DNA of 33,447 nucleotides. Source: an uncultured Saprospiraceae bacterium. GTDB lineage: Bacteria; Bacteroidota; Bacteroidia; Chitinophagales; Saprospiraceae. The notes below the pieces were generated by a model. It was given only the letters and a program-made list of their open reading frames with translations. It did no database searches and had not been told where the DNA came from. Of this stretch, positions 18,399 to 21,918 are shown piece after piece. The translations under genes and the position numbers were made by a program. Where the stretch lies: NCBI GenBank assembly GCA_937125475.1, contig CAKZLL010000319.1:1-33447 (forward strand), read 5' to 3'. How positions within the stretch are numbered: position 1 is the first letter of the stretch; the number at the start of each line of letters is the position of its first letter.

Positions 18399-18450
18399 TA
18401 ATAAGAAAAGCCTCAGACTTCAATATTGAAGTCTGAGGCTTTTCTTATTA
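18399..18450. terminator. 52-bp perfect palindrome, bidirectional terminator
   Basis: Twenty-six bases on each side of the centre (between 18424 and 18425) are exact complements. The GC-rich middle GCCTCAGACTTC is flanked outward by an A-run and T-run (AAGAAAAG.../...CTTTTCTT), so both strands get a stem followed by T's. It lies between convergent TM2 and peroxidase genes. Confidence 0.92.
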
Positions 18451-18461
18451 ATAAAGTGTCT

Positions 18462-19484
18462 TTACTCTGAAAATTCAGAATTATTAATAAAGTCCCAATC
18501 GGTTAAGCTTTTCAAAAAAGCAATTAAATCTGATTTTTCTTGTTCTGAAAGTTGAAGTGATTGTATTAATGAACTTTGATTCGGATGACCGAAGCCGCCT
18601 TGATTGTATCTTTCTATAACCTCCTCTAAAGAATTATAAGTTCCATTGTGCATATAAGGCGCGGTAAGTTCAATATTACGAAGTGTAGGAACTTTAAATT
18701 TGCCAATATCTGAGCTATCTGCTGTAATTCTCGCCAAACCATGATCATCAAAAGAAGCAAAAGCACCATTATTAACAATAGCATATTCCGAAAAATCAAA
18801 ACCACCATGACAACTGCCACAGTTTAACCGAGTGCTAAAAAATAAAGACATCCCACGTTGTTCGGAAATAGTCAATGCTTCATTTTCTCCCCAATATTTG
18901 AAGCGATCATATTTTGAATTTGCGCTAATCAATGTTCTTTCAAATGCACTTAATGCTCGAACAATTACAAAGTTATCCAAAGATTTGCCAAAAGCTTGAT
19001 GAGATAAGGTTTGAATGTTTTCGTCATCCTTTAACCGTTCGATTATACCAATTGTTGAAAAATCCATTTCTCGATGATCTTCAATTGGTCCAAAAACTTG
19101 AGATTCTAATGAGTTATTCCCGCCTTCTCTAAAGAAATAGGGATGATAAGCGACATTAATTAAAGTAGGAGAATTTCGGAAACCAATTCGATTATCGATA
19201 CCGATAGAAATAGGATGATGATCCGCAAATCCTTCTGATTGTAAATGACAAGAACCACAAGAAATCGTTTCATTGCGCGAAAGTCGCTTATCATAAAACA
19301 ATTGTTTACCCAATGCGACACGCTCTAAAGTCACTGCCCGATCACTAGGAATAGGCGGGAAGGGAACACCCGCAGGTAAGTTGAATTCATAAGGTGTTTC
19401 GGTCATAGTAGGTGGAGCTTCATCAAAATCACAAGATATGATGAAGCTACACCAACATAAAATAAATAGTGTTTTTGATTTCAA
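18462..19484 (-). CDS. di-haem cytochrome c peroxidase / MauG-MbnH-like lipoprotein
   Basis: A 340-residue protein with two haem c sites, CGSCH at 76-80 and CGSCH at 222-226, and the conserved APYMHNG near residues 275-281. This is the bacterial di-haem peroxidase/MauG fold. The start codon is TTG (19484): no ATG or GTG lies in frame back to a stop near 19506. From it a lipoprotein signal reads through FIISC, with C18 as the lipidated residue. The protein is therefore periplasmic and membrane anchored. The gene begins 16 bp after the MbnP-like stop, so the two are surely co-transcribed. In methanotrophs the partner enzyme MbnH oxidises a tryptophan of MbnP; the pairing suggests the same here. 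A plain H2O2 peroxidase role remains possible. Confidence 0.92.
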   Translation of the reverse strand: MKSKTLFILCWCSFIISCDFDEAPPTMTETPYEFNLPAGVPFPPIPSDRAVTLERVALGKQLFYDKRLSRNETISCGSCHLQSEGFADHHPISIGIDNRIGFRNSPTLINVAYHPYFFREGGNNSLESQVFGPIEDHREMDFSTIGIIERLKDDENIQTLSHQAFGKSLDNFVIVRALSAFERTLISANSKYDRFKYWGENEALTISEQRGMSLFFSTRLNCGSCHGGFDFSEYAIVNNGAFASFDDHGLARITADSSDIGKFKVPTLRNIELTAPYMHNGTYNSLEEVIERYNQGGFGHPNQSSLIQSLQLSEQEKSDLIAFLKSLTDWDFINNSEFSE

Positions 19485-19500
19485 ATCACTTATTATTTGA

Positions 19501-20217
19501 TTACATTACAGAAAAAGCGTCTTTCAAATTATCCATCATTGTGGCACTCATACCATGAACTGTAGTATTATTTTTTAAGTCAATATCCTTGAATAAATTC
19601 GCGTAATCGACCTTAATCATAATTTCTTCTGTAGACTTTGTTAACTCTTGATGAGTCATTAAAGTAAGGTTACGAAGCATTTCATTTCTACCAATATGAT
19701 AAGCAAAAGGCGTTTCTGGTGTTCCGTCTCCATCCACATCAACTAGCCCTTCGATTTTTGCAAAAATATACCCTGAATTCCAGTTCCAGTGCATTTTAGG
19801 ATCTTGAATAGCTAAAGGATCTTCTGCATCACGAGCAGTAAAATTAGCCTCAGTTTGTGCATTATTAGTAGCATCAACACCGACACTAAAGGTTAATTCA
19901 TGTGCATGTAGTAACGAAGTTTCGCCCCATTCATACGTTCCATGACCTGCTTTGACTAGGAAATAATTGTCAATACTTTCCGATCCACCATCATCATCTG
20001 AAAGAGAAAAACCATGCGTGTAAAATTGCGCTAAAGTAAATTGAACAGGAAGAGTATCATTAATCGTATAAGTTTGATTGAAATTGAAATCTTCTGCTCC
20101 TACTTTTGGATGAAAGTGAAGGTTTAATGTTGTTTTTTCATCAGAATCGCATGAGCTTAATAAAAGTGCGCATAAAGCTAATGAGATTGATAAAAATTTT
20201 ATAGTTATTTTTTTCAT
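19501..20217 (-). CDS. MbnP-family lipoprotein, probable copper-binding protein
   Basis: A 238-residue lipoprotein (MKKITIKFLSISLALCALLLSSC, lipid-attached C23). The opening strand LNLHFHPKVG and the later KMHWNWNSGYIFAKIEG (141-157, with W144 and W146) match the MbnP family as I know it. In characterised MbnP a tryptophan is converted to kynurenine by the di-haem enzyme MbnH, producing a copper site. His-rich stretches here (H34, H36, H104, H106 and H143) are possible metal ligands. DVDGDGTPETPF (about 160-171) looks like a calcium-binding loop. The gene lies directly before the MauG-like gene in the same message. No mbnA/B/C genes are present, so this is not a methanobactin biosynthesis operon. 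Confidence 0.88.
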   Translation of the reverse strand: MKKITIKFLSISLALCALLLSSCDSDEKTTLNLHFHPKVGAEDFNFNQTYTINDTLPVQFTLAQFYTHGFSLSDDDGGSESIDNYFLVKAGHGTYEWGETSLLHAHELTFSVGVDATNNAQTEANFTARDAEDPLAIQDPKMHWNWNSGYIFAKIEGLVDVDGDGTPETPFAYHIGRNEMLRNLTLMTHQELTKSTEEIMIKVDYANLFKDIDLKNNTTVHGMSATMMDNLKDAFSVM

Positions 20218-20279
20218 AATTATTTAGTTTAAAATATTGTTCTGGTTCATTGATAATTTTTGTCTTTAAATCCAATGTA

Positions 20280-20325
20280 GGCTTGCCCCGTTGTTCTAAC
20301 TTATTGAAAAACAACGGGGCAAGCC
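20280..20325. repeat. GC-rich inverted repeat, 16-bp perfect arms
   Basis: GGCTTGCCCCGTTGTT (20280-20295) pairs exactly with 20310-20325 across a 14-base loop; flanking TCCA/TGGA extend it imperfectly. The GC content stands out from the AT-rich surroundings. The core resembles the GGGCAAAG palindromes at 7112 and 8756 in flavour but not base for base. Attenuator, terminator or REP-like element are all possible. Confidence 0.75.
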
Positions 20326-20389
20326 ACCACTGGACTAAAAAAATATTCATTTTGGCAAAAATTGTTAATGAACCATTGTTTTTTATTAG

Positions 20390-20446
20390 ACTTGTACGGC
20401 GGCTAGTGATTTAGTATGTAGCAAACTTAATAGCCGCTGTACAAGT
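20390..20446. repeat. second inverted repeat, 16-bp arms with one mismatch
   Basis: ACTTGTACGGCGGCTA (20390-20405) pairs with TAGCCGCTGTACAAGT (20431-20446) except for one position, with a 25-base loop. It lies 65 bp from the first hairpin in the same gap. Confidence 0.7.
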
Positions 20447-20543
20447 ATATTAACGATTATTAAATATTAATTAAGTACTCATAGTTCTCTGAATTATATG
20501 ATTTGTAATTTCAAAGACAATGAGTTATTTATAAAATTGAATT

Positions 20544-21440
20544 TTAGAAAATAAAAGATATTTGCCCCATATATCTACTTTTAGCACTCACTTCGTTCAG
20601 CGAATACATTTGAGAAAGAGGAGGTGTATAAGCAGTACTGAACAAGAGACTTTTCCATTTTAGGTTAATCCCTGTTGTTAAAAAAAGTCCCTTACCACTT
20701 GTTCCACTCACTAAAGCGCCATCATCAAAATGATCTTGAGCAATACTTTCGCCCAAAATTCCAAGATAAGGTGTGAGCGCTAATTCATTTTTTAAATCTT
20801 TCCGATAATAGAATAAAGCCTGCCCTGAAACCTGATTACCAAATTGATAACCAGATTTAGAAACGGCATTGCGCTGATAAGTACCATTCATGATTAACCC
20901 AAAGTTATTTTTATTGAGAATGATATTAGGTTGGAAGATAAAACTCCAAGTGCCTTTCCCAATATTGAAATTTTCAGGTAAATCCTTACTATGTAAATTG
21001 CTATCGTACTTACCGACAGGCAGTTGTGCGCCAGCTCCTAGTTCCATATATAGGTTGACCCCACCTATTTTTTTATCCCTAAGAATAGTATAATTAGCTA
21101 AAATTCGAGTATCACCAATGCCCTCCAAATTGCTCAATTCATCGTTTGTATTTCTGAAATTGAGTTTATAAGGTTGATGTACCAATAGTTTAAAATCCGT
21201 TGTGAAATGGTATCTCATAGATAATTCTAGCGTGTGAAATTGATCATAAGAACCTGCACCATGAAAGCGAGAGCCTTCAAAAGGTGTTAATTGCCAAGAC
21301 ATACTAATAAAATTGTAACGATAAGCCGAAACTAAGCCTAGACCTGTTCCACTAATACTACACCCACATACATCACAAGCATATGAAGGGATATTTAATA
21401 AGATGCCCAGCACAATAAGAACAATTGTTTTTCTTATCAT
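20544..21440 (-). CDS. outer-membrane beta-barrel protein with N-terminal CDVCGC motif
   Basis: A 298-residue protein starting at ATG 21440 (MIRKTIVLIVLGILLNIPSYA), preferred to an upstream ATG that would place 13 residues before the signal peptide. Predicted cleavage leaves CDVCGCSISG at the mature N-terminus, a CxxCxC cluster suited to metal binding. The rest alternates polar and apolar residues in strands (LSMRYHFTTDFKLLVHQPYKLNF, GVNLYMELGAGAQLPVGKY) and ends in IF. This is the pattern of the 'transporter' barrel family related to phenol-degradation MetA proteins. Such Cys-capped barrels accompany MbnP-like genes in Bacteroidota as I recall. The likely role is metal (copper) handling at the outer membrane. 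Confidence 0.8.
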   Translation of the reverse strand: MIRKTIVLIVLGILLNIPSYACDVCGCSISGTGLGLVSAYRYNFISMSWQLTPFEGSRFHGAGSYDQFHTLELSMRYHFTTDFKLLVHQPYKLNFRNTNDELSNLEGIGDTRILANYTILRDKKIGGVNLYMELGAGAQLPVGKYDSNLHSKDLPENFNIGKGTWSFIFQPNIILNKNNFGLIMNGTYQRNAVSKSGYQFGNQVSGQALFYYRKDLKNELALTPYLGILGESIAQDHFDDGALVSGTSGKGLFLTTGINLKWKSLLFSTAYTPPLSQMYSLNEVSAKSRYMGQISFIF

Positions 21441-21552
21441 GGCTTTTTTTTTGATAAAATAATAGATATAACCCTCCAATCGCCTAAAAAGACGGTTGAA
21501 AAATGATTAATAAAGTAATTTAAAAATTGTCTCTGAATGAATTTCTGAGACT

Positions 21553-21918
21553 TTAGGCATTCTTTGACTGTGGTGGTTGAAGAATTTTAGAAATGAAAGA
21601 TTGAGAAATAATATGGTTTTCCTTAATATTTACCTGATGTTGAGGTAATACAATTGAGATAGAATTAGCATCAATTGTATGAAGAAAAACAATTATTTCT
21701 TTATAATTTTCAGCAGTTTGATTTGGAGTATTTTTGTCATCTAATTGATCCGTTAAATAACATCGCCCAAAACACATCACATCTACTACATCATTATTTA
21801 CACAAATATTATCTGTTATGTAATCTTGATGAATAGTAAAAGAAACATAGAGCGCCACATCCTTCAAACTCATTGATAGGAATAAAAAACACATAAATAT
21901 GGCTAAACCTTGTTTCAT
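21553..21918 (-). CDS. small Cys-containing exported or membrane protein (copper-cassette associated)
   Basis: A 121-residue protein from ATG 21918 (MKQGLAIFMCFLFLSMSLKD); a longer version from 21966 would put charged residues before the signal-like helix. After the helix come CVNNDVVDVMCFGRCYL with three cysteines (C-x9-C-x3-C) and then a polar tail. I recognise the pattern C-x-N...CxGKCYLxKxL from small uncharacterised Bacteroidota proteins, but know no function. It is the first gene of the minus-strand run that leads into the barrel, MbnP-like and MauG-like genes (gap 112 bp). A role in metal binding or delivery is inferred from place and cysteines only. Confidence 0.7.
   Translation of the reverse strand: MKQGLAIFMCFLFLSMSLKDVALYVSFTIHQDYITDNICVNNDVVDVMCFGRCYLTDQLDDKNTPNQTAENYKEIIVFLHTIDANSISIVLPQHQVNIKENHIISQSFISKILQPPQSKNA

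Follow-up and report, generated by a model that had tools for sequence, protein, structure and literature searches.

A four-gene cassette of Saprospiraceae with an MbnP/MbnH pair, a cysteine-tailed barrel and a small cysteine protein: a candidate copper acquisition system sharing a gene with OprC-type receptors

Introduction

The closest described relative of the locus analysed here is the MbnP/MbnH "metallo-mystery pair" of Methylosinus trichosporium and other organisms (structures 7l6g and 6e1c). According to a 2021 paper on MbnP, the first tryptophan of its WxW motif is reportedly converted to kynurenine, and copper is said to be held by a histidine, a methionine and solvent. Pairs encoded outside methanobactin operons have been published before (PMC3621798; families TIGR04039 and TIGR04052) and we therefore rejected a pair without methanobactin as the novelty of our locus. 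MopE/SACCP and CorA/CorB of methanotrophs are described in the accessible part of PMC3912023 as copper-repressible surface proteins with kynurenine-bound Cu(I) and a MauG-like di-haem partner; that part gives a two-His site for MopE/CorA and mentions neither a barrel nor a small protein. The outer-membrane receptor OprC binds copper through a CxxxM-HxM site (PMC8610252), and an OprC-like receptor was noted earlier in the flavobacterium Bizionia (PMC11213822). In COG4313 channels, an N-terminal segment occludes the lumen and hydrophobic molecules have been proposed as cargo.

Here, we describe a cassette found in a stretch of 33,447 nucleotides from an uncultured Saprospiraceae bacterium (the window). 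It resembles the metallo-mystery pair in gene adjacency, in the MbnP fold, in a WxW motif with invariant first tryptophan, in a di-haem partner with two CxxCH motifs and in a tyrosine aligning with the putative MauG-type ligand. In contrast, the window lacks methanobactin genes and the four-cysteine feature tested by TIGR04052, each partner is a lipoprotein whose signal resembles those for surface export, and the cassette contains a barrel and a small cysteine protein in addition. With MopE/CorA it would share a surface Cu(I)-kynurenine protein beside a MauG-like di-haem protein (accessible part of PMC3912023), whereas the fold differs and the PDB search with the window MbnP gave no sequence match to these proteins. 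OprC/NosA receptors (PMC8610252) are related to the cassette through the small gene, which they adjoin as alternative outer-membrane partner in relatives, but the window carries no such receptor and its barrel, with 12 predicted strands, has no plug. Compared with COG4313/FapF channels (4rl8, 5o67), the window barrel shows about 12% identity, carries an N-terminal CDxCGC cluster and has copper genes as its genetic context instead of genes for phenol or amyloid.

Results

Re-derivation of the coordinates (21918-18462) bore out the arrangement given in the initial annotation of this DNA. The four genes (Table 1) lie on the minus strand and are read in the order small protein, barrel, MbnP, MbnH with 16 bp between the last two, the mature barrel starts at ...SYA-CDVCGC, and the small protein carries C-x9-C-x3-C. 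The flanking genes encode a methyltransferase-like and a TM2 protein, which are unrelated by Pfam family. Barrel and MbnP genes are separated by 326 bp, and because a repeat lies in this gap, a single transcript for the four genes is not certain here. The palindromic repeat, about 105 bp long and present at least 40 times in the same genome with 87-94% identity, interrupts the cassette and probably plays no functional part in it; in relatives, the corresponding spacing is about 20-30 bp. The absence of methanobactin genes, also stated initially, held at the genome level: in a profile search with positive controls the 92% complete genome gave no match for MbnB/TglH/ChrH (PF05114), so that the MbnB-family biosynthesis gene by which a methanobactin operon is recognised was not found in it. 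This genome returned no OprC match, and haem-copper oxidase genes are present. Its second MbnP locus (L056, G000:C544, 3-1743) consists of two tandem MbnP genes, and the sequenced stretch contains no MauG-like gene; tandems of this kind were found in many relatives.

Table 1. Features of the cassette, in positions of the window
Feature	Coordinates	Strand	Properties
Small protein gene	21553..21918	-	121 aa; first of four
Barrel gene	20544..21440	-	298 aa; CDVCGC at predicted mature N-terminus
Interspersed palindromic repeat between barrel and MbnP genes	20271..20376	.	multicopy
MbnP-family lipoprotein gene	19501..20217	-	238 aa; C23 lipobox; HWNWNSGY
MbnH/MauG-like di-haem lipoprotein gene	18462..19484	-	340 aa; two CxxCH; Y293
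Terminator-like hairpin after MbnH gene	18402..18447	-	20 pairs

The MbnP-like protein matched Pfam PF20243 with 116.8 bits (E 1.4e-33, cut-off 27), and since HWNWNSGY occupies residues 143-150, the earlier numbering of W144 and W146 is right. Its predicted structure (pLDDT 91.2) retrieved below E 0.001 only chains of MbnP 7l6g from the PDB, with TM-scores of 0.55-0.57. It fell short of the four-cysteine equivalog TIGR04052 (43.7 bits, cut-off 140), as did other Bacteroidota MbnP members tested. W144 and H174 were invariant in 20 homologues, and among 51 MbnPs whose genes lie close to a small or barrel gene, 49 retained W144, 48 H174, 47 W146 and 42 M142. H174 and M142 align with a His and a Met of 7l6g and are putative ligand positions. 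A contig search with the MbnP alone gave no confirmed hit.

The di-haem protein matched CCP_MauG at 1.8e-49 and the MbnH family TIGR04039 of NCBIfam at 1.8e-84, where its 283.6 bits did not reach the equivalog cut-off of 362.85. Its top PDB match was 6e1c (E 1.5e-53), which is catalogued as "Di-heme enzyme" and which we take to be M. trichosporium MbnH. The haem motifs span C76-H80 and C222-H226, and both were kept in all 44 MbnHs of cassettes. Y293, which aligns with the tyrosine of 6e1c at the MauG-ligand position, is a putative axial ligand kept in 37 of these 44 proteins. Loss of the haem or tryptophan residues in close homologues, which the initial annotation had named as evidence against its reading, was thus not seen.

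MbnP, MbnH and a YtkA-like lipoprotein carry acidic residues at +4/+5, resembling the surface-export signal of Bacteroidetes; the fraction with an acid at +4 was 0.76-0.78 compared with 0.41 for other lipoproteins of the same loci. Moreover, four MbnPs of relatives bear type IX sorting tails, three of them above the cut-off. On the basis of these acids and tails we infer a site of action at the cell surface for the pair, as has been reported for MopE/SACCP; exposure on the surface seems more likely for both proteins than a periplasmic location. MbnP homologues fused to a type IX tail and lacking a lipobox are encoded at L071 1125-2084, L072 4736-5692, L032 1138-2109 and L033 233-1192; the tail-fused MbnPs come from relatives, among them the sister species G001.

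For the barrel, AlphaFold2 yielded a model with 12 strands (pLDDT 86.6; residues 12-34 at low confidence), and Foldseek matched it to FapF (5o67, E 2.2e-11) and to a COG4313 channel (4rl8, E 7e-9). A 12-strand COG4313/FapF fold is therefore predicted. At 298 aa and with no plug domain found by Pfam, the window barrel does not correspond to an OprC/NosA receptor. The first cysteine of CDVCGC was invariant in 19 barrel homologues; located at +1 of the mature protein, it might be lipidated rather than metal-binding. Because the N-terminal segment was modelled at low confidence, any position assigned to CDVCGC is presumptive.

For ALTERNATIVES in relatives, a barrel match was obtained in 22 of 60 related genomes. 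A small gene adjoins 18 of these 22 barrels (another barrel sits at a contig end) and an MbnP gene adjoins 11, and thus the cassette is not a chance assembly. Seven of the 60 genomes gave a strong OprC match (E < 1e-100), in each case beside a small gene, and OprC and barrel occurred together in a single genome (G031), each with its own small gene. In close relatives, OprC and the barrel are thus alternatives that rarely coexist. MbnH or the barrel is missing from some cassettes, and in two loci (L082, L084) MbnP has no MbnH nearby. Many others are arranged as small-MbnP-MbnH-barrel and not as small-barrel-MbnP-MbnH as in the window; this variable order points to a re-assembly of the unit, and such re-assembly speaks for a shared function. 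In this taxonomic order, a His-rich DUF4625-like lipoprotein of 128-147 aa, adjoining the barrel, is a frequent extra member (L077, L078, L087, L089-L093); its weak NCBIfam matches to fimbrial and toxin models reflect signal peptides only and were discarded.

No Pfam or NCBIfam model matched the small protein. It has one N-terminal hydrophobic segment with no visible cleavage site, the motif C-x-N-x7-C-x-G-x-C and a C-terminal PP, and in an alignment of 16 sequences C49, N51, C59, G61, C63 and P129 (reference numbering) were invariant. The exact C-x9-C-x3-C spacing was found in 148 of 165 members, and the protein occurred in 117 of 296 sampled Bacteroidota genomes. When named genomes were scanned with a degenerate DNA pattern, the small gene was almost confined to Bacteroidota among the matches listed, with one exception by title, Glaciecola. 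The complete small-MbnP-MbnH set of this gammaproteobacterium (classified by title; L126) suggests transfer between phyla. Upstream of small genes (L125-L204, L253-L312) we observed an enrichment of the CRP/FNR-like palindrome TGAYN4RTCA (43/141 vs 32/290, p 1.4e-6), with a distance to the start of mostly 27-85 bp; most loci and the window lack it, and we did not build upon it.

Neighbours of the small gene were counted in two sets, which may overlap in some species. In the 77 named loci among the matches listed, we found a TonB receptor in 51, a YtkA-like lipoprotein in 19, MbnP in 16, MbnH in 14 and the barrel in 9. The second set comprised 56 loci from 60 regions hand-picked across families out of a phylum-wide search, and its neighbour profiles were built from the 77-locus set. 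Here, 54 of the 56 loci had a partner from a short list beside the small gene and two had none; the neighbours were an OprC-like receptor (26), another TonB receptor (15), MbnP (13), MbnH (13), a CDxCGC-type barrel (12) and a YtkA-like lipoprotein (11). MbnP and MbnH stood together in 13 of the 56 loci. The survey of Bacteroidota genomes proposed by the initial annotation, with absence of a conserved neighbourhood as the outcome speaking against it, thus returned such a neighbourhood. Phylum-wide, the constant member is the small cysteine protein, and the MbnP/MbnH pair and the barrel are each optional. Consequently, the earlier view of the pair as core of a separate Bacteroidota system stands for the conserved set and needs revision as regards the pair.

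In 30 sequences of the OprC-like receptors, the C, M, H and M of the copper site (CxxxM-HxM) were invariant; the distance from C to H is about 181 residues compared with 180 in OprC, and one of these neighbours matched only OprC in the PDB. The 15 other TonB receptors lack this site, so that some partners of the small gene may carry non-copper cargo, and it is this lack that most weakens a reading confined to copper. Receptors of this class often precede a gene of about 400-450 codons (L268, L269, L278, L280 and similar loci).

Discussion

As the best-supported reading, we consider it moderately probable that the cassette serves copper acquisition from the surface to the periplasm, as an alternative to OprC. 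The copper link rests on gene neighbourhood and homology, and since the small gene also adjoins OprC-type copper receptors, the cassette is tied to copper independently of the kynurenine idea. For the small protein, we propose a role as envelope Cu(I) acceptor. The path that we infer includes a surface location, kynurenine formation, copper binding by both cysteine clusters and a direction and order of transfer. The surface lipoprotein MbnP would capture Cu(I) after MbnH has oxidised W144 to kynurenine, copper would pass the COG4313-like barrel with its CDVCGC tail inside the lumen or near the periplasmic opening, and it would then be handed to the three-cysteine site of the small protein, which is held by an N-terminal helix anchor and probably faces the periplasm. 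In this scheme the small protein would be the constant step; the stage before it in the transport path would be served by an OprC-type TonB receptor in some cells and by the barrel plus MbnP/MbnH in others. The copper role suggested in the initial annotation is thus backed by the OprC-type receptors that share the small gene, and a placement of the pair in the periplasm appears less apt than one at the surface. Points against acquisition are the hydrophobic cargo proposed for COG4313 channels, the receptors without OprC site, the TIGR04052 result, the incomplete cassettes and possible lipidation of the barrel cysteine.

Protection against copper, the other role considered initially, appears unlikely. 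The surface MbnP and the cysteine clusters would trap excess copper or the barrel would export it; cysteine-rich sites bind Cu(I) tightly and diverse roles of MbnP in copper homeostasis are possible. However, the interchangeable neighbour is an uptake receptor of OprC type, which makes protection less likely than acquisition, and among the neighbours read off in the cassettes inspected no efflux pump or copper ATPase recurred. Ranking below protection, and improbable in our view, is a cassette unrelated to copper: a small or hydrophobic molecule would cross the barrel, and the modification of MbnP by MbnH would serve some other end. This would agree with the cargo proposed for COG4313 channels, with the receptor class lacking the OprC site and with the differing substrates of MauG-like enzymes, but the commonest neighbour of the small gene is a receptor with that site, almost every cassette MbnP retains W144 and H174, and the MbnP fold matches copper MbnP only. 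We place last, as likewise improbable, the idea that, with copper uptake otherwise as described, the small protein acts not as a carrier but as a copper sensor in the membrane or as an assembly factor for the outer-membrane parts: its gene is nearly always first, a single helix holds it and a simple carrier would not need the invariant C-terminal PP, but Pfam and NCBIfam detected no known regulatory or chaperone domain and the C-x9-C-x3-C spacing is as tightly kept as expected of a metal site.

Within the acquisition reading, we tentatively put forward a wider possibility, which we hold with clear reserve: surface MbnP/MbnH and the cysteine-tailed barrel could form an outer-membrane copper route that works independently of a TonB receptor and converges with OprC import on the C-x9-C-x3-C acceptor, a protein present in about 40% of the sampled Bacteroidota genomes. 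The initial annotation had considered the combined set to lack an experimental description. The pair alone is known (PMC3621798), but the cassette and the small protein as its hub appear to be undescribed within the literature searched.

Since full cassettes occur in cultured genera such as Flavicella, Pedobacter and Chitinophaga (L133, L134, L174), tests are practical. Through gene context, the findings connect MbnP/MbnH pairs outside methanotrophs to copper, and the shared small gene offers a step that two uptake routes of the whole phylum have in common and that can be tested.
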